A stretch of 64,000 nt of DNA from a virus, in the IMG/VR virus record IMGVR_UViG_3300042568_001093, positions 1-64,000 of that record, one strand, 5' to 3'. The notes under the pieces are model-generated. The model was not told where the DNA came from. It searched no databases and saw only the letters and a program-made list of their open reading frames with translations. Below, one piece after another: positions 3,961-16,226 of the stretch. Within the stretch, counting starts at the first letter, position 1, and each line of letters opens with the position of its first letter. The position numbers and the translations under genes were made by a program.

Positions 3961-5862
3961 GTGTCAACAGAAATCATCCCAGTATCCCTAAAAGAAGAGT
4001 TACAGAGTAGTTATCTCACCTACTCCGTGGCGATCTTCAACCGGGCTCTACCCTCTGTCACCGATGGACTTAAGTCCGCTCAACGCCGAATTATCCTCGG
4101 CCTTAAAGATCTCAATCTTCGTCCTGATGGCCAATACAAGAAAGTATCGAGGCTCGAGGGCCATGTCCTCGGCTCGTACCACCCGCAAGGCGGCTGCGCT
4201 GGTACGGCTATTAATATGGGTCAATCTGATTCTTTTCGGTATCTTCTTACTGACATCCATGGCAACGTTGGAGGTAGTATTCAATCCGGGCCGAGCGTCG
4301 GTCAATCCATTTCTGAAGACGCTCCGGCAGCTGCAAGATACCTTGAGGTGAAGACTAGCGCCCTCACCCAACGACTTTACATCACCGAGATAGATAAGTA
4401 TAGTTGCCAATGGCGAGATAACTATGACGGCTCGACGAAAGAAGTCATTGAGATTGTCCCCGTTATCCCGGCCCTTCTTATCAACGGGGCGCAGGGTATC
4501 GCAGCAGGTTACGCCTGTCATCATGTCCCTTATAACCTTTCCGAGGTGATCAAGGGCACTATTGAATATATTAAAAATCCACGCATTACTCCTAAGCGCC
4601 TATTCTCCTTCATCAAGGGACCCGATCTGCCCAATGGCGCTCGGATTTTAAACGATGAGGCAGTGTTTAATGCTTTTGAAAAGGGCAGCGGATCTCTCAA
4701 GACTTATGGTACTTGGGAGGTAAAAAAAGTCCAACACGGAAAACGGTCTACTCGAGATGCTATTATTATTACCTCTTTGGCTAGCGGGAGCTCAGAACGC
4801 TTCCTTGAAAAACTCAAGGACTCAGTCGAATCAGAAAAAATCGTGGGTGTCATCGATGCCCAAGACCACTCATCCCGTGACGGTATTGAAATCCAAGTCA
4901 TCCTAAAGACCGGAGTAGAAGCAAATACCGTAATCTCCCAACTTCTTGCCTTTACAAACCTGGCAGATAGCATTGGCGTTAATGCCACGGCCATCTCTAG
5001 TGGCCTCCCTACCATCTTCGGGGTGAAGGATATCATTGCCGAGTGGTACGGGGCACGATGCGAAGCCCTAAAGTCTAGGTATGTGGCTGAGTGCGACAAA
5101 CTTTCTTCCCGAGTCCACATCCTTGATGGCCTTTTAACCATCTTGGCGGATATCGATGAGGTAATTAAACTCATTAGGGGTTCGAAGACCAAGGAGATCG
5201 CGGCCGGGAAGCTTAAAAAGCGCTGGAAGTTGAGCGATATCCAGGTCCAGGCGGTCCTCTCCATGCCTCTCAGCCGATTGGTGGGGGTAGAGCGCCTTGA
5301 ACTGGAGAGCGAGAAGGCCGATCTTGAGGCAAAAATTGCCAATCTGACCGAGATCGTGACAAATTCAGCCAAAATGGATGGGCATATCATCTCCCAGATC
5401 AGCGATTTCAAAGAATTTGCTGATAAACGCCGGAGTATGTTGGTTGAAAAGCAAGAAATTGGTATTGAGAAAGCCAAAATCACCACTCAATCTGGCACGC
5501 GTAGGGTGAAGATGCCGAGTCCGAAGGATCGGATCAAAGAAGAGGGGAAAAGGATCGGTATGAAGAGGTCTGAGTTGAGTAAATTCTTCACTCAAGTGGC
5601 CGGAAAGACCAACATCAAGGCAGAATGGGACCAATTTAAAGAAGATTGGAATCACTCCCAACAACTTTTAACCCGTAAAGGGCGCGCAGAGCGCAAAATC
5701 CTACTCGATAAGATGAAAGAATCGGCTACTAAGAAGGGAATGCCATCTAGGGGTAAGCATTCTTGGACTTCTTTCATGAAAGAGAGGGAAGATGCTAAGA
5801 TTAAGAGCATTGAGAATGACCTCAAGGAATGGATGAAGAACATTCCTAAGCCTAGCAAATAA
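3961..5862 (+). CDS. Type IIA DNA topoisomerase subunit A (gyrase/topo IV A-like)
   Basis: 633 residues. This is the DNA-cleaving subunit that cuts duplex DNA through a tyrosine while an ATPase B subunit (not in this window) drives strand passage. LKSAQRRIILGL and HPQGGCAGTAINMGQ are the winged-helix and cleavage region. The catalytic pair is R126-Y127 in AAARYLEVK. GAQGIAAGYACHHVPYN follows as in GyrA/ParC, then a coiled coil and QVQAVLSMPLSRL. The gyrase C-terminal beta-pinwheel is absent. Residues ~500-633 are instead a Lys-rich tail unlike the GyrA domain. T4 gp52 (about 440 residues) also lacks a pinwheel. The start is GTG with no clear ribosome site. A terminator follows at 5878. Confidence 0.93.
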   Translation: MSTEIIPVSLKEELQSSYLTYSVAIFNRALPSVTDGLKSAQRRIILGLKDLNLRPDGQYKKVSRLEGHVLGSYHPQGGCAGTAINMGQSDSFRYLLTDIHGNVGGSIQSGPSVGQSISEDAPAAARYLEVKTSALTQRLYITEIDKYSCQWRDNYDGSTKEVIEIVPVIPALLINGAQGIAAGYACHHVPYNLSEVIKGTIEYIKNPRITPKRLFSFIKGPDLPNGARILNDEAVFNAFEKGSGSLKTYGTWEVKKVQHGKRSTRDAIIITSLASGSSERFLEKLKDSVESEKIVGVIDAQDHSSRDGIEIQVILKTGVEANTVISQLLAFTNLADSIGVNATAISSGLPTIFGVKDIIAEWYGARCEALKSRYVAECDKLSSRVHILDGLLTILADIDEVIKLIRGSKTKEIAAGKLKKRWKLSDIQVQAVLSMPLSRLVGVERLELESEKADLEAKIANLTEIVTNSAKMDGHIISQISDFKEFADKRRSMLVEKQEIGIEKAKITTQSGTRRVKMPSPKDRIKEEGKRIGMKRSELSKFFTQVAGKTNIKAEWDQFKEDWNHSQQLLTRKGRAERKILLDKMKESATKKGMPSRGKHSWTSFMKEREDAKIKSIENDLKEWMKNIPKPSK

Positions 5863-5877
5863 AAAGTAACTGGTTAA

Positions 5878-5911
5878 GGTATAAGTGTTAATAGCTTATA
5901 CCTTTTTTTTT
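5878..5911 (+). terminator. Rho-independent terminator after the topoisomerase gene
   Basis: Perfect 8-bp stem GGTATAAG / CTTATACC (5878-5885, 5895-5902) followed by nine T. It ends only three bases before the ATG of the glycosyltransferase, so expression of that gene must come from read-through, attenuation control or a nearby start site. Confidence 0.85.
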
Positions 5912-5914
5912 ATT

Positions 5915-7207
5915 ATGTCTAATGCCCCGAAACTACCAAAAGTAGCAATTCTCCTTCTCCGAGGCCTTGAGGGGTGCGGAGTTAGTAACTATTCCCGCCA
6001 TATGAAGGGGTATTATGATTCCGTTGGTGGAGTATGTGATATTTTTGCGCTACAAACCAAAGTTGGTAGGTCTGATACCTCCTCCGATATGGATGTTAAG
6101 TTTTTTAAGTACGAAGATAAGCAAGAAGTTGTTGATAAAGTCAATTCTGGGTACGATGTGATTCTTATTTTCTCTGTCCCAGACACATCAGAACCCGATA
6201 CGGTTACAAATGGGTATGTTTCTGAGATTATTGAAAAAATCGACCGTAAAAAAGTAATGGTGAATCATGATCACCACGCTCATACATTTAAAAGAAACGC
6301 AGATTTTAAAAACGCGATCGAATCGTGCGATAAAGTCATGGCGCACTCACTAAATAAAACAAACTCGGGGTTTATTGAGTGGATGGAGAAGCAAAATGCA
6401 ATTATTCCTCCGATGGAGAAGATTGATATCTTTTTCCATGTCCCATTCATCCAGCATTTGATCAATCTTGAGAAGGATACCCGCAAAAAACGGGTCATCC
6501 ATGCCAGTAGAGCAGTCGCATGGAAACGTGGATCACTGATCCTCAATCTGCAAAAACTCCTCGCGGATAAAGGGTTTATCGCTGAGATGATCGGCTTTGA
6601 GCGTTCGATCGCCGGTTATACTCAACTTAAAAACTATGAAGGAGTGCTTGATTGGTTCAAATCCACTGACTTTATCAAGCCTATCAAAGGTCCTTCTCCA
6701 TTCTCCAACTCAAAAATAAATAGTCAACTTATGGATTGGCTCGATGAAGTCGGCCAAGATCCTCAATTTATGTACGTAATTGGTTCTTATGACTATCATC
6801 GTGGCCTGAAGAGAATTGCCGAGTCAGCTTTTGCTACTCAACCAAGAACTTTTGAGCATAATAAACTCTGCTATGGAAACACATTTATCGAATACCAGGG
6901 TATCGAAGCTGCTCTACTCTCAGTTCCTATCTACCACCGCCATTTCTTAGATAATGTCACTATACCTAATACAAACACCCTACTGAGTCAGACTGACACG
7001 TTTATCTCTATTGATGATGATGGTAGAGCTCTAGCCAAGGGTGGTCCTCAAGTGCTTGAGCCAGAAAAGTTTGTAGATATGCTCGAAGAAATTTGGGAAG
7101 ATGACAACAAGTATACCGAATATCGCAAGAAGTCTTCTGATTTTATGATGAAGTATTTTTCATCAGCGAGCATTGTCCCTAATCTCATGGAGAAAATTAT
7201 GTCATGA
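5915..7207 (+). CDS. Homologue of T4 DNA alpha-glucosyltransferase
   Basis: 430 residues from ATG 5915; an upstream GTG at 5885 would lie inside the terminator hairpin and is rejected. The N-terminus has LRGLEGCGVSNYS, nearly the same as the nucleotide-sugar loop of T4 alpha-glucosyltransferase (ARGLEGCGVTKFS). NHDHHAHTFKRN (H118-D119) matches the T4 QHDHSVLSLRRN segment holding its catalytic His-Asp. SRAVAWKRG matches RTTTWKG, and EYQGIEAALLSVPIY matches the C-terminal sugar-binding part. The T4 enzyme moves glucose from UDP-glucose to 5-hydroxymethylcytosine in phage DNA. Here it overlaps a UDP-galactopyranose mutase gene (ATGTCATGA), so the sugar may be galactofuranose. Substrate and product are inferred. 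Confidence 0.85.
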   Translation: MSNAPKLPKVAILLLRGLEGCGVSNYSRHMKGYYDSVGGVCDIFALQTKVGRSDTSSDMDVKFFKYEDKQEVVDKVNSGYDVILIFSVPDTSEPDTVTNGYVSEIIEKIDRKKVMVNHDHHAHTFKRNADFKNAIESCDKVMAHSLNKTNSGFIEWMEKQNAIIPPMEKIDIFFHVPFIQHLINLEKDTRKKRVIHASRAVAWKRGSLILNLQKLLADKGFIAEMIGFERSIAGYTQLKNYEGVLDWFKSTDFIKPIKGPSPFSNSKINSQLMDWLDEVGQDPQFMYVIGSYDYHRGLKRIAESAFATQPRTFEHNKLCYGNTFIEYQGIEAALLSVPIYHRHFLDNVTIPNTNTLLSQTDTFISIDDDGRALAKGGPQVLEPEKFVDMLEEIWEDDNKYTEYRKKSSDFMMKYFSSASIVPNLMEKIMS

Positions 7208-8328
7208 CAAAAGTCCTAGTAGTAGGGGCCGGGTTCTCCGGCTCTGTGGTAGCTCGTGAGTTGGCTAGTTTTGGTTGTAAAGTACATATAATCGACGAGA
7301 GGGAGCATATTGCTGGGAACTGCCACACTGAGCGAGATGAAAAGACCAATATCATGGTCCATACTTACGGACCCCATATCTTCAATACAAATATCCCCAG
7401 GGTATGGGAATATGTAAATAAGTACGGGGAGTGGGTACCTTATGTCAATAGAGTAAAAGCCTCTATAGACTCTGGAGTTTACTCCCTACCAATCAACCTC
7501 CATACAATCAATCAGTTCTTCCAGACAAATTTTAATCCAGCGGAAGCTAAAAAATATATCCAAAAGTTAGCTAGCAAAGACTACCCTCAACCAACTAACT
7601 TTGAAGAACAGGCTCTTAGCATGATCGGTAAAGGTCTCTATGAAGCCTTCTTCAAGGGATATACTGAGAAGCAATGGGGATGTAACCCTACGTCTCTCCC
7701 AGCTTCGATCCTCAAGCGACTCCCTGTGAGGTTTAATTATGACGATAATTATTACAACTCAAAGTGGCAAGCAATTCCAAAGCATGGATATACCCAAATA
7801 GTTCAAAATATCATCTCCCATGAGAACATAACTCTTGAGCTGGGGAGGTCTTGGGATATTTCTGATAATGATAACTATGACTTGGTGATTTATACCGGAC
7901 CTATTGACAAATACTTCGACTACTCCCACGGACAACTGGGCTATAGAACTGTATTCTGGGAGAAAGAATATGGCAGAGGAGACCTTCAAGGAAACGCAGT
8001 TATAAACTACCCATCTACCTACCAACTTTTCACCCGCGTACATGAGCATAAACATTTCACCCCTTGGGAATCTCATGATCAGTCAGTGATATTCACAGAG
8101 TTTAGTAAGGAAACAGAGCAAGGCGACATCCCCTATTACCCAAAGAGACTTTCAGATGATCTAGAGATTCTTTCTAAGTACCAAGAGGAAATTGCTAAGC
8201 AGACTAAAGTTAAGTTTGTTGGTAGGTTGGCTACTTATCGCTATTTGAATATGGATGCAATAATCTCCGAGGCGCTTGATCTCTCCGATACCATCAAGGT
8301 CGGTTTAAAGATAGATACTATGTCTTGA
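7204..8328 (+). CDS. glf: UDP-galactopyranose mutase
   Basis: 374 residues, a normal length. This flavoenzyme interconverts UDP-galactopyranose and UDP-galactofuranose. GAGFSG (8-13) is the FAD dinucleotide fold. EREHIAGNCH and TYGPHIFNT correspond to the family's HIGGN and GPHIFHT segments, and GRLATYRYLNMDAII near the C-terminus is the second flavin motif. Its ATG overlaps the stop of the DNA glycosyltransferase gene, strong evidence for joint function. Capsule or lipopolysaccharide synthesis is the usual context of this enzyme, but no such genes lie nearby. The psbA promoter begins within its last codons. Confidence 0.93.
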   Translation: MTKVLVVGAGFSGSVVARELASFGCKVHIIDEREHIAGNCHTERDEKTNIMVHTYGPHIFNTNIPRVWEYVNKYGEWVPYVNRVKASIDSGVYSLPINLHTINQFFQTNFNPAEAKKYIQKLASKDYPQPTNFEEQALSMIGKGLYEAFFKGYTEKQWGCNPTSLPASILKRLPVRFNYDDNYYNSKWQAIPKHGYTQIVQNIISHENITLELGRSWDISDNDNYDLVIYTGPIDKYFDYSHGQLGYRTVFWEKEYGRGDLQGNAVINYPSTYQLFTRVHEHKHFTPWESHDQSVIFTEFSKETEQGDIPYYPKRLSDDLEILSKYQEEIAKQTKVKFVGRLATYRYLNMDAIISEALDLSDTIKVGLKIDTMS

Positions 8329-8353
8329 TTTCCTGACATAGATGGGTTATAAT
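8325..8353 (+). promoter_or_regulatory. Sigma70-type promoter for psbA
   Basis: TTGATT (8325-8330), 17-base spacer, TATAAT (8348-8353), a near-consensus bacterial promoter 62 bases before the psbA ATG. With the terminator at 9524 it makes psbA a self-contained unit read by host RNA polymerase. Confidence 0.75.
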
Positions 8354-8414: not shown

Positions 8415-9497
8415 ATGACAGCTTCTTCAATTGCCCAACAGCGTGTTGGCAATCAGTGGGAACAGTTCTGTGAGTGGGTAACATCCACCAACAACCGTCT
8501 CTATGTCGGTTGGTTTGGTACTCTGATGATCCCTACCCTCCTTGCTGCAACTGTTTGCTTTATTGTTGCCTTTGTTGCTGCGCCTCCGGTAGATATTGAC
8601 GGCATCCGTGAGCCTGTTGCTGGTTCGCTAATGTATGGCAATAACATCATTTCTGGTGCTGTTGTTCCTAGTTCGAACGCAATCGGACTTCACTTCTACC
8701 CTATTTGGGAAGCTGCTTCGCTAGACGAATGGCTTTACAATGGCGGTCCCTATCAACTGGTGGTTTTCCACTTCCTCATTGGCGTATTTAGCTACATGGG
8801 TCGGGAATGGGAACTTTCTTACCGACTTGGTATGCGTCCTTGGATTTGTGTTGCCTACAGCGCACCCGTGGCTGCTGCTACTGCAGTGTTCCTCGTATAT
8901 CCATTTGGACAAGGTTCCTTCTCTGATGGAATGCCTCTTGGCATTTCAGGTACATTTAACTACATGCTTGTTTTCCAGGCGGAGCATAATATCCTCATGC
9001 ACCCCTTCCATATGCTTGGGGTGGCTGGTGTATTTGGTGGTTCTCTTTTCTCTGCTATGCATGGATCTTTGGTCACTAGTTCGCTCGTTCGTGAAACCAC
9101 AGAAGTAGAGAGTCAAAACTATGGATACAAATTCGGACAAGAAGAAGAGACTTACAACATCGTTGCAGCCCACGGCTACTTCGGACGTCTCATCTTCCAA
9201 TACGCATCCTTCAACAACTCTCGCAGTCTTCATTTCTTCTTGGCTGCTTGGCCTGTTGTTGGTATTTGGTTCGCTGCTCTGGGAGTTAGCACGATGGCCT
9301 TCAACTTGAATGGTTTTAACTTTAACCAATCATTGCTTGATAATAACGGTCACGTAATTAACACCTGGGCAGATATCCTCAACCGCGCTGGTCTTGGTTT
9401 TGAGGTGATGCACGAGCGCAATGCTCACAACTTCCCTCTCGATCTTGCGGCCGCAGAAACCACCCCCGTGGCTCTCAAGGCTCCGGTTATTGGTTGA
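8415..9497 (+). CDS. psbA: Photosystem II D1 protein
   Basis: 360 residues, full length and intact. D1 is the reaction-centre subunit that binds P680, pheophytin, the secondary quinone and the Mn cluster in the thylakoid membrane; phage copies replace photodamaged host D1 during infection. Typical segments are [44 protein letters not shown] and [13 protein letters not shown], followed by a C-terminal extension ([15 protein letters not shown]) removed after the conserved Ala in LDLA. It has its own promoter and terminator and carries no intron. The large open frames inside it on both strands are shadows. Confidence 0.99.
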
Positions 9498-14877: not shown

Positions 14878-14917
14878 CTTTAAACTAGAGATAATTATGG
14901 AATTTACCTGGTATAAT
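14878..14917. promoter_or_regulatory. Divergent control region
   Basis: Minus strand: AGTTTAAAG at 14878-14886, 29 bases before the fibre-like gene start. Plus strand: TATAAT at 14912-14917, 24 bases before ATG 14941. No clear plus-strand -35. Confidence 0.45.
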
Positions 14918-14940
14918 TGTTTAGTAATCTAAAGATTTTT

Positions 14941-15363
14941 ATGTATTTTGCAGCAGCAATCCAAGCAGTAAATGCAGGTTTGAAAAAAAGTAATGAAATT
15001 GGCACTAAGATGAACATCGCGGTTGTTGATCGTGGTGGGAATTTGGTTGCCTTTGCCCGTGAAGATGGGGCATGGGTGGGAAGCGTGGACATCTCTATTA
15101 AGAAAGCTCGCACAGCAACATTTTTTGACATGGAGACTCAAGAAATTGGAAAACTATCTCAACCGGGTGGTAGTCTGTATAATATTGAACATTCTAACAA
15201 TGGTCTTATTACTTTTCCTGGCGGGGTCCCTCTAACTACTCCAGATGGTGTTATTCTTGGTGGTGTAGGTGTTTCCGGCTCGACAGTAGAGGATGATTTT
15301 GCGGTGGCCCAAGCAGCAGTTGAAGGTTTCAAGACTGCTTTTGTTGAAACAACCGAAAATTAA
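14941..15363 (+). CDS. GlcG/HbpS (heme-binding, DUF336) family protein
   Basis: 140 residues. [19 protein letters not shown] is the family signature, followed by [26 protein letters not shown] and [11 protein letters not shown], all in the order of GlcG/HbpS proteins. Members are small alpha-beta proteins, some of which bind heme. Role in the phage is unknown; heme breakdown supplies biliverdin, the substrate of the bilin reductase at 10822, but this link is speculative. ATG 14941 follows a TATAAT box and is preferred to the upstream TTG at 14917. Confidence 0.85.
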
Positions 15364-15396: not shown

Positions 15397-15470
15397 GCCA
15401 CTATAGCTCAGCTGGATAGAGCAACGGTTTTGTAAACCGTAGGTCGTCGGTTCAAGTCCGACTTGTGGCT
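15397..15470 (+). tRNA. tRNA-Thr(TGT)
   Basis: Cloverleaf with anticodon TGT at 15431-15433, T arm GTCGG-TTCAAGT-CCGAC, and acceptor GCCACTA against TTGTGGC with one T-T mismatch. CCA is encoded directly after (15471-15473), with the next tRNA starting at the following base. Confidence 0.9.
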
Positions 15471-15473
15471 CCA

Positions 15474-15547
15474 CGGGATATAGCGCAGCTTGGTAGCGCG
15501 GATGCTTTGGGAGCATTAGGTCGCGGGTTCGAATCCTGCTATCCCGA
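15474..15547 (+). tRNA. tRNA-Pro(TGG)
   Basis: Acceptor CGGGATA pairs fully with TATCCCG. Anticodon TGG at 15508-15510 in loop TTTGGGA. T arm GCGGG-TTCGAAT-CCTGC. Starts immediately after the CCA of tRNA-Thr. Confidence 0.92.
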
Positions 15548-15551
15548 TATT

Positions 15552-16226
15552 ATGGAACTAAATAGACGTTACTTTGGTAAAACTATTGTTTTTTGCCTTC
15601 CAGGATCTCATTATTCTGGGAGGTTTTTAGTACGATTTACTCAACTCCTATTAGATTGTAGACAAATTGGAATAAATACTATCATCTCCCAAGATTATAG
15701 TTCCATGGTTAACTACGCTAGGTGTAAAGTAATGGGTGCAAATGTCACCCGTGGCAAGTACCAAGTTCCATTTGGAGGGGCAATAGAATATGACTACATG
15801 ATGTGGATTGATAGTGATATTGCATTCACCTCAGCGGATTTTTTTAAACTCCTTGAGCAGGACAGAGATATAGTCTCTGGTTGGTATATTCAACCCGGAG
15901 GATTAACTCCTATTGTTGAAAAAATGGATGATGAATATTTCAAATCTCATGGATATTTTGAATTTATCTCCGAAGATGCCATGAGTAAACGTAATTCGCT
16001 ATTTAAAGCTGATTATGTTGGTTTTGGTTGGGTGCTAATAAAACGAGGCGTGTTTGAATCCATCTCCTATCCATGGTTTGCGCCAAAACTTATAAAAATA
16101 GGTGAAGATTTAGAAGATGTATGTTCAGAAGATGTCTCCTTCTGCATCGATGCAAAAAATGCTGGTTATGACATATGGGTTGATCCAAAAATCCGAGTGG
16201 GCCATGAAAAGGTATTGACCATCTGA
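15552..16226 (+). CDS. GT-A fold glycosyltransferase
   Basis: 224 residues from ATG 15552; the frame is open further upstream but only because it runs through tRNA-Pro. MMWIDSDIAF places a DxD metal and nucleotide-sugar binding motif at D87-D89. GFGWVLIKRGVF and SEDVSFCIDAKNAGYDIW, then DPKIRVGHEK, are the acceptor-side motifs of family 2-like transferases. Proteins of this kind are common in cyanophages with unknown acceptor. It may modify virion protein or host surface sugar. It differs in fold from the DNA glycosyltransferase at 5915. Confidence 0.8.
   Translation: MELNRRYFGKTIVFCLPGSHYSGRFLVRFTQLLLDCRQIGINTIISQDYSSMVNYARCKVMGANVTRGKYQVPFGGAIEYDYMMWIDSDIAFTSADFFKLLEQDRDIVSGWYIQPGGLTPIVEKMDDEYFKSHGYFEFISEDAMSKRNSLFKADYVGFGWVLIKRGVFESISYPWFAPKLIKIGEDLEDVCSEDVSFCIDAKNAGYDIWVDPKIRVGHEKVLTI

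Follow-up and report, generated by a model that had tools for sequence, protein, structure and literature searches.

A T4-type DNA glycosyltransferase gene coupled to a UDP-galactopyranose mutase gene in a marine cyanophage, and a possible furanosyl modification of phage DNA

Gene content of the locus

The stretch analysed here (the window) comprises 64 kb (positions 1 to 64,000) of a 74,080-base virus record (IMG/VR IMGVR_UViG_3300042568_001093, here G000) of the kind of Cyanophage S-TIM5 (Aurunvirus), a marine cyanobacterial virus. On the + strand it harbors a gene coding for a homologue of the T4-type DNA alpha-glucosyltransferase AGT (5915..7207, ATG at 5915, 430 amino acids), identified by sequence and predicted fold, and a gene coding for a uridine diphosphate (UDP)-galactopyranose mutase, Glf (7204..8328, ATG at 7204, 374 amino acids), identified by PF03275 and PDB matches. 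The stop codon of the first and the start codon of the second share the bases ATGA (7204..7207, + strand). The pair is flanked upstream by a gene for a topoisomerase II / gyrase A-like subunit (3961..5862, + strand; PF00521, E 1.3e-95) and downstream by psbA (8415..9497, + strand; recognized from its translation), which occupy the same places in Cyanophages S-TIM5 and S-TIM54, psbA also in further relatives. The gene order topoisomerase-AGT-psbA is therefore common to the window and these two phages, and the window has a single additional gene, Glf, inserted between AGT and psbA. A sister contig of 159,262 bases (G001), 97.5% identical to the window record over 13.2 kb, was used to follow functions encoded elsewhere in such genomes.

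A terminator-like hairpin with a run of T (5876..5904, + strand; 11 pairs, -12.6 kcal/mol, z -3.54) ends 10 bases 5' of the AGT start codon, and the region's best promoter-like site (8325..8353, + strand; a consensus match of 10/12) is located where Glf ends, 5' of psbA. By these features the AGT-Glf pair may form its own transcription unit; they are consensus matches, only slightly more numerous than chance would give (four terminator-like sites observed for 2.5 expected, nine promoter-like sites for 7.0). A GTG at 5885 would lengthen the AGT reading frame, and the hairpin overlaps this alternative start.

The glycosyltransferase and the mutase

An earlier note, made from the letters of the DNA, had read the first gene as a T4-type AGT from its GLEGCGV loop and HDH motif, and sequence searches, individual residues and the predicted fold all bear this out. 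The protein matches T4 AGT (1y6f) in a phmmer search at E 2.8e-11 over residues 9-278, and PHROG_2888, annotated as alpha-glucosyltransferase, at E 1.9e-87 over residues 6-419, while its score against the Pfam family AGT (PF11440; E 4.7e-05, 23.1 bits) falls slightly below the curated cut-off of 25, the S-TIM5 homologue scoring above it (37.3). The loop, in full RGLEGCGV, occupies residues 16-23 (R16-V23) and the HDH motif residues 118-120. Seven residues of T4 AGT (D115, H116, R204, W208, K209, E306 and E311) are conserved in 7/7 aligned rows, with D119, H120, R199, W203, K204, E326 and E331 as their equivalents in the window; among them are an Asp-His pair, an Arg and a Lys, and two Glu, to which functional roles are ascribed. 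T4 H114 is also conserved in the window and is Leu in both phages that carry an epimerase gene, described below. The AlphaFold model (21 sequences; pLDDT 81, pTM 0.82; weak at residues 314-326) superposes on T4 AGT with Z 39.8 over 380 residues (root-mean-square deviation 2.6); five T4 AGT entries score Z 38.8-39.8, and the other 45 entries among the matches listed reach at most 24.7. On sequence and model, the window gene is a relative of T4 AGT with the AGT variant of the GT-B fold. Its substrate is a prediction, and identity to T4 AGT is 18-23% depending on the alignment, so it might be argued that the protein modifies something other than DNA; we consider this highly improbable given the gap in Z between T4 AGT and the best other match listed, and the conserved AGT loop and C-terminal Glu pair. 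Taken alone, such an AGT is no novelty, since the S-TIM5 gene is already annotated as a DNA alpha-glucosyltransferase.

The assignment of the second gene as UDP-galactopyranose mutase holds as well. Glf scores 240 bits against PF03275 (cut-off 26.3) and 65.1 bits against NAD_binding_8, an FAD-binding Rossmann motif; against NCBIfam TIGR00031 it scores 294.4, below the cut-off of 303.75. Its closest PDB entries are the Klebsiella mutases 3gf4 and 2bi7, matched at full length (360 residues) with E about 1e-137. Of ten active-site positions of the Klebsiella enzyme described in the literature, eight are conserved in the window (H60, Y155, W160, R174, Y185, R280, Y314 and Y349). His63 is replaced by Asn, a common change that is present in 31 of 80 bacterial relatives; these 80, which are 50-59% identical, were kept out of 131 from a non-exhaustive scan for exact peptide patterns, and no record title among the 80 names a cyanobacterium. 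Glf was also found in L003, L004, L006 and the L005/L009 contig. The substrate of the family is UDP-galactose.

Content of the slot between AGT and psbA

The slot was surveyed in 46 rows, namely the window, S-TIM5, S-TIM54 and 43 IMG/VR loci retrieved by an alignment search with AGT. The end of AGT is readable in 42 rows and cut in L062, L066, L067 and L068 (L065 and L068 are one contig). The next gene is psbA in 33 of the readable rows, Glf in five (window, L003, L004, L030 and L006), a short-chain epimerase in two (L008, and L037, which lies on the L007 contig) and neither in two: the L044 contig stops 292 bases on, and L052 has other genes, its first forward frame of at least 50 amino acids lying 280 bases on, with no psbA seen. 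All seven partner genes start at -4, inside AGT (Glf 5/5, epimerase 2/2); for psbA, the distance from the AGT stop to the first in-frame start codon is 11 to 231 bases. In L033, L036, L037, L046 and L047, psbA is in pieces after AGT, possibly reflecting introns with homing endonucleases.

The two epimerase genes (L007:7266-8174 and L008:5150-6061), each with the 4-base overlap with AGT, code for UDP-glucose-4-epimerase-like proteins. The closest PDB entry to the L007 protein is 4zrm, a UDP-glucose 4-epimerase (E 3.6e-51), and the slot epimerase matches the Pfam family Epimerase at 5.5e-60; against GalE it scores 151.3 bits, below the curated cut-off of 262.3. The L007 protein found no match in S-TIM5, S-TIM54 or G001, in a search that had no positive. 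The galE family was likewise unmatched in these three genomes, and matched the L007 contig and 14/14 control genomes. No match to the GLF family is present in S-TIM5 or S-TIM54.

Joint transfer of the glycosyltransferase and its partner

The history of AGT was compared with that of the topoisomerase gene, the conserved upstream flank, taken as the control gene of this cassette test. The AGT tree holds 38 of the 46 rows and T4, the cut AGTs (L051, L061-L063 and L065-L068) being omitted; the topoisomerase tree holds 35 rows, with L005 and L007 standing in for L030 and L037, and omits L004, L032, L046, L051, L061, L062, L063 and L065-L068. In the AGT tree the five Glf rows form one clade and the two epimerase rows another, and these clades are sisters (97/93), separate from the 31 partnerless rows. 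In the topoisomerase tree both partner types are split, and the starred branches require two changes per type: L007 groups with S-TIM5 and S-TIM54 (91/91, within a starred set of 17 rows), L008 pairs with L047, and L006 pairs with L064 (both at 99/98).

Pairwise protein identities follow the same pattern. L007 and S-TIM5 are 96% identical in topoisomerase and 58% in AGT, and L007 and L008 are 80% identical in topoisomerase, 91% in AGT and 87% in the epimerase. For L008 and L047 the values are 93% (topoisomerase) and 60% (AGT), for L006 and L064 91% and 58%, and for L006 and the window 83% and 87%, with 81% for Glf. Expressed as topoisomerase minus AGT identity (group means, L064 being counted in the S-TIM5 group), partnerless groups differ by -4.9 to +1.7 points; for the Glf rows the difference is +17.0 in comparison with the ten partnerless rows closest in AGT and +5.6 with the rest, and for the epimerase rows it is +24.2 with the S-TIM5 group and +2.3 with the same ten. 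At the DNA level, a sliding-identity scan of L008 against L053, S-TIM5 and L045 gives identities of about 62-78% for the topoisomerase gene, about 53-66% over the greater part of AGT and 78-85% for the initial portion of psbA, the epimerase part being unalignable and carrying no information; this profile is consistent with a swapped segment.

The discordance of the trees and the pairwise identities indicate that AGT and the sugar enzyme are passed on together, as a unit, among phages that differ in other respects, and we regard this co-transfer as the strongest evidence for their joint function. Joint use of AGT and Glf, which the earlier note had read from the overlapping codons, is backed by the slot survey, by the co-transfer and by an independent overlap of Glf with another DNA glycosyltransferase gene (see below), so that on sequence grounds the coupling is well supported. 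A chance adjacency of the two genes was also considered, and is ruled out by the slot survey and the cassette test.

The AGT proteins themselves differ with the partner. In a column comparison of the 31 partnerless, five Glf-type and two epimerase-type AGTs (a column being conserved when at least 30/31 partnerless rows agree), the Glf type has a different fixed residue in 39 conserved columns and the epimerase type in 29. Position 319 holds Asp in 31/31 partnerless rows and Cys in all Glf (5/5) and epimerase (2/2) rows. Likewise near E326 and E331, the change H309Q and an inserted Ile325 are present in 5/5 Glf-type AGTs and in no other row. The model, being weak at 314-326, does not allow residues 309, 319 and 325 to be located relative to the sugar site.

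A proposed cassette setting the sugar of phage DNA

We lean towards reading AGT-Glf as a variant of the T4 system that makes furanosyl-DNA. Glf would turn host-made UDP-galactopyranose, or a close UDP-sugar, into the corresponding furanose, which the AGT homologue, its preference shifted away from UDP-glucose, would put on the hydroxymethyl group of cytosine in phage DNA, where it would shield the DNA from host nucleases. In the sister phages an epimerase in the slot would be expected to give UDP-galactose, and an empty slot to leave UDP-glucose as donor; the DNA sugar would be exchanged between phages by swapping the whole AGT-plus-enzyme unit. The gene identities, the T4-AGT fold, the ATGA junction, the restricted content of the slot and the co-transfer of AGT with its partner are computed; the direction of supply, the identity of the sugar, the acceptor base and the protective role are what we infer. 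Galactofuranose is the most likely sugar, and AGT with its sugar enzyme probably represents a swapped cassette that sets the DNA sugar to glucose, galactose or galactofuranose. We put forward more tentatively, as a possibility that may well prove too broad, the full proposal of galactofuranosyl-cytosine DNA, whose sugar identity is exchanged by swaps of a cassette of glycosyltransferase and nucleotide-sugar enzyme, with some phages of another glycosyltransferase family convergent on it, in a general diversification of DNA decoration against sugar-reading nucleases.

Several observations weigh against the furanosyl-DNA reading. One concerns the sugar: all five Glf of the clade (window and L003-L006) have Asn in place of Klebsiella Asp351, a replacement that is rare among the bacterial relatives (3/80). 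Mutases are known to accept UDP-arabinopyranose. The pair might then be coupled and act on DNA with a sugar other than galactofuranose, either because Glf acts on another UDP-sugar (of arabinopyranose or N-acetylgalactosamine), or because AGT still uses UDP-glucose while Glf does no more than drain or tune the UDP-galactose pool. A T4-like phage is known to carry arabinose as an unusual sugar on its DNA, according to the accessible text of PMC6024577; however, the eight main active-site residues of Glf are conserved and its best structural matches, at full length, are galactopyranose mutases, and we judge another sugar unlikely. Two further points concern the comparison among the phages: the split of Glf in the topoisomerase tree could be explained by a single gain together with a loss in L064, and Cys319 may be a single ancestral change without meaning, the Glf and epimerase AGTs being sister clades.

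On the acceptor base the observations are divided, the first of them, a ThyA homologue of dCMP type, speaking for the furanosyl-DNA reading. No member of the ThyA family was matched in the 74 kb record; G001 carries one ThyA homologue, as does S-TIM5, which also encodes ThyX. The ThyA-like proteins of S-TIM5 and G001 have Asp at the position of Escherichia coli ThyA Asn177, as in T4 gp42; the accessible text of PMC8670742 describes Asp177 as switching the enzyme to deoxycytidine monophosphate (dCMP) and as a mark of contigs with modified cytosine. The dCMP hydroxymethylase that the earlier note proposed to look for thus has a candidate with the dCMP-type Asp in G001, whose product is possibly methyl-dCMP: the protein has a His147 as in thymidylate synthase, where T4 gp42 has Thr, is nearer to E. 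coli thymidylate synthase (29% identity) than to gp42 (22%), and could by sequence be a dCMP methylase. A dCTPase, sought on the same suggestion, did not turn up: T4 gp56 found no match in G001, S-TIM5 or S-TIM54, in a search that matched T4 and Erwinia phage FBB1 and that leaves room for distant or unrelated enzymes (the FBB1 dCTPase is of T4 type, 61% identical). The deoxynucleoside monophosphate (dNMP) kinase family (T4 gp1, PF21448) was similarly unmatched in these three genomes and matched in T4. A T4-style complete replacement of cytosine is therefore not supported. Moreover, G001, S-TIM5 and S-TIM54 all have a match to C5-cytosine methylases, with intact-looking PPC, ENAP and QERTR motifs in the two inspected, S-TIM5 (gp080, L017:17505-18722) and G001 (134248-135135), where this gene and that of the ThyA-like protein are about 1 to 3 kb apart. 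Such an enzyme would be pointless if every cytosine were 5-substituted, which is in tension with complete replacement. In S-TIM5, methylation is reportedly restricted to cytosines that follow a purine; if this is right, full replacement is unlikely, and AGT would act on a context-limited base or the assay was partial.

These observations also raise the possibility that the C5-methylase sets 5-methylcytosine in its context, that an undetected oxygenase turns it there into 5-hydroxymethylcytosine and that AGT glycosylates the product. The intact-looking methylase motifs in S-TIM5 and G001, the unmatched T4-type dCTPase and dNMP kinase and the reported modification of S-TIM5 cytosines behind purines would fit this route, as would the fact that bisulphite cannot tell 5-methylcytosine from 5-hydroxymethylcytosine, as given in the accessible text of PMC2811190. 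It leaves the Asp177 of the ThyA-like proteins unexplained, however, and TET/JBP oxygenases were unmatched in S-TIM5, S-TIM54, G001 and the L010 contig, in a search where no control matched and which is thus uninformative; we consider the oxygenase route quite unlikely.

Supply of the donor and a possible role in glycans

The earlier note had remarked that no capsule genes accompany the mutase, and had named a glycan pathway elsewhere in the genome as the finding that would speak against a DNA role. Neither a capsule nor a glycan cluster was found in G000 or G001, confirming the remark. A search of G000, G001, S-TIM5 and S-TIM54 for the GLF, GT2 (PF00535) and GT1 (PF00534) families returned only a single Glf in G000, which is the 74 kb record, and a single one in G001; neither glycosyltransferase family was matched, and both matched 14/14 control genomes. 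Because the galE family is unmatched in G001, S-TIM5 and S-TIM54, the host must supply UDP-galactose; in Synechococcus elongatus, a control that is not the host, the galE family is matched and GLF is not.

AGT might still glucosylate DNA as in T4 while Glf serves a virion glycoprotein or a host glycan, their adjacency arising by chance or from expression timing. Elsewhere Glf does lie among sugar genes (L011 and L012, by eye) or in surroundings free of glycosyltransferase annotation within 8 kb, and the window itself codes at 15465-16226 for a PHROG_1574 protein with weak glycosyltransferase similarity (PHROG_34859, E 3.1e-05). The latter cannot be tied to Glf, since its 68%-identical, glycosyltransferase-annotated counterpart is present in S-TIM5, itself without a Glf match. 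Together with the co-transfer of AGT and Glf, the restriction of genes overlapping the AGT end to nucleotide-sugar enzymes and the unmatched GT1 and GT2 families in G001, this makes a glycan role unlikely, though not so much as to be neglected. Close by, at 14917-15363, lies a gene for a haem-degrading protein of the HbpS-like family (PF03928, E 5.2e-35), here in a cyanophage.

Glf behind other glycosyltransferase genes in phages

In L010, a locus found through Glf, the upstream gene overlaps Glf by 4 bases and codes for a TET-associated glycosyltransferase (TAGT; PF20691, E 2e-34). In T2 and T6, TAGT adds a glucosyl onto already alpha-glucosylated cytosine, according to the accessible text of PMC13216743. 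Among 80 relatives kept out of 144 in a survey started from the L010 TAGT, Glf follows at -4 in L072 (the L010 contig; TAGT and Glf at L010:1237-3245) and, independently, in L095 (L095:2171-4254). In L115 (307-2781) an epimerase-family gene overlaps the TAGT end and is followed by a UDP-glucose dehydrogenase-like gene, and in L087 (4001-5454) an NTP-transferase-like gene starts at -4. In the other 76 of the 80 loci neither Glf nor an epimerase was found by tblastn, the next genes being judged by their first residues and some contigs ending soon after TAGT; L078, the only one of the 76 scanned with Pfam, gave no family.

Two observations from these phages count on the opposing side. The activity of the L095 Glf is uncertain because the residues equivalent to Klebsiella Arg174 and Tyr185 are missing as aligned, and the contexts of Glf in other phages indicate that it is not always DNA-related. 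Glf was matched in 88 phage records, four of which were examined (FBB1, Aeromonas phage 25, phiM9 and RL38J1): in phiM9 and RL38J1 an amidase gene precedes Glf, and it is these two that have no glycosyltransferase annotation within 8 kb. In FBB1 and Aeromonas phage 25, both T4-like, the gene after Glf codes for a protein of PHROG_14998, of unknown function (L027:7953-10078 and L026:7364-9545), and the same order is present in 3/3 IMG/VR loci (L069, L070 and L071). PHROG_14998 is a possible second candidate for a Glf-coupled DNA glycosyltransferase; a comparison of two of its sequences with T4 beta-glucosyltransferase gave an hhalign probability of 0.9%, and its predicted model is uninformative (pLDDT 40).

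Comparison with known systems and significance

Glucose is the best-known sugar of phage DNA. The window shares with T4 agt (PF11440) the fold and the conserved residues, and G001 has a ThyA-like protein with the Asp of gp42. In T4, however, the gene after agt is 47.1, coding for a small hypothetical protein and not for a sugar enzyme, and T4 has a dCTPase and a dNMP kinase, unmatched in S-TIM5, S-TIM54 and G001, which have a C5-methylase. S-TIM5 and S-TIM54 share the order topoisomerase-AGT-psbA with the window and have an AGT 55% identical to its own, but match neither the GLF nor the galE family.

Related sugar supply has been proposed in other phages. RB69 and other Mosigvirus members are T4-like and carry arabinosyl-hydroxymethylcytosine, for which phage UDP-sugar genes are proposed in the accessible texts of PMC6024577 and PMC13390438; they differ in the sugar and in the enzymes proposed, and neither text, so far as accessible, mentions "mutase" or "furanos". 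For Shewanella phage Thanatos, with pentosyl cytosine, the accessible text of PMC12838424 proposes a phage sugar-activating enzyme for DNA modification, which is a UDP-xylose pyrophosphorylase instead of a mutase, and again contains neither word. In the Enterococcus phages VPE25 and VFW cytosine is modified, by inference with a sugar, and the authors suggest that a second protein, which shares 28% identity with a galactofuranosyltransferase, might add to the modification of the DNA; these phages differ in having T4 beta-glucosyltransferase-like and WbbI-like proteins, and "mutase" does not occur in the accessible text (PMC4999554). Among the matches listed in text searches of the open-licence literature, no report besides this one links a mutase or galactofuranose to phage DNA. 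The TAGT phages (L010/L072 and L095) have the same arrangement as the window, a DNA glycosyltransferase gene followed by Glf at -4, with a glycosyltransferase of another Pfam family.

Sugars on phage DNA shield it from restriction enzymes and lower the activity of Cas nucleases, according to the accessible text of PMC12838424. If the proposed furanosyl variant of the T4 system is true, a furanose on DNA, a hexose in a five-membered ring, would be a new DNA chemistry, and one that mass spectrometry alone would miss, as the furanose has the same mass as glucose. Through the cassette swap, the phages with no partner, an epimerase or a mutase form a natural series on one glycosyltransferase backbone, from which the choice of donor and the defences driving the change may be learned. 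A searchable rule also follows, by which the sugar would be predicted from whichever gene overlaps a DNA glycosyltransferase gene at its end.

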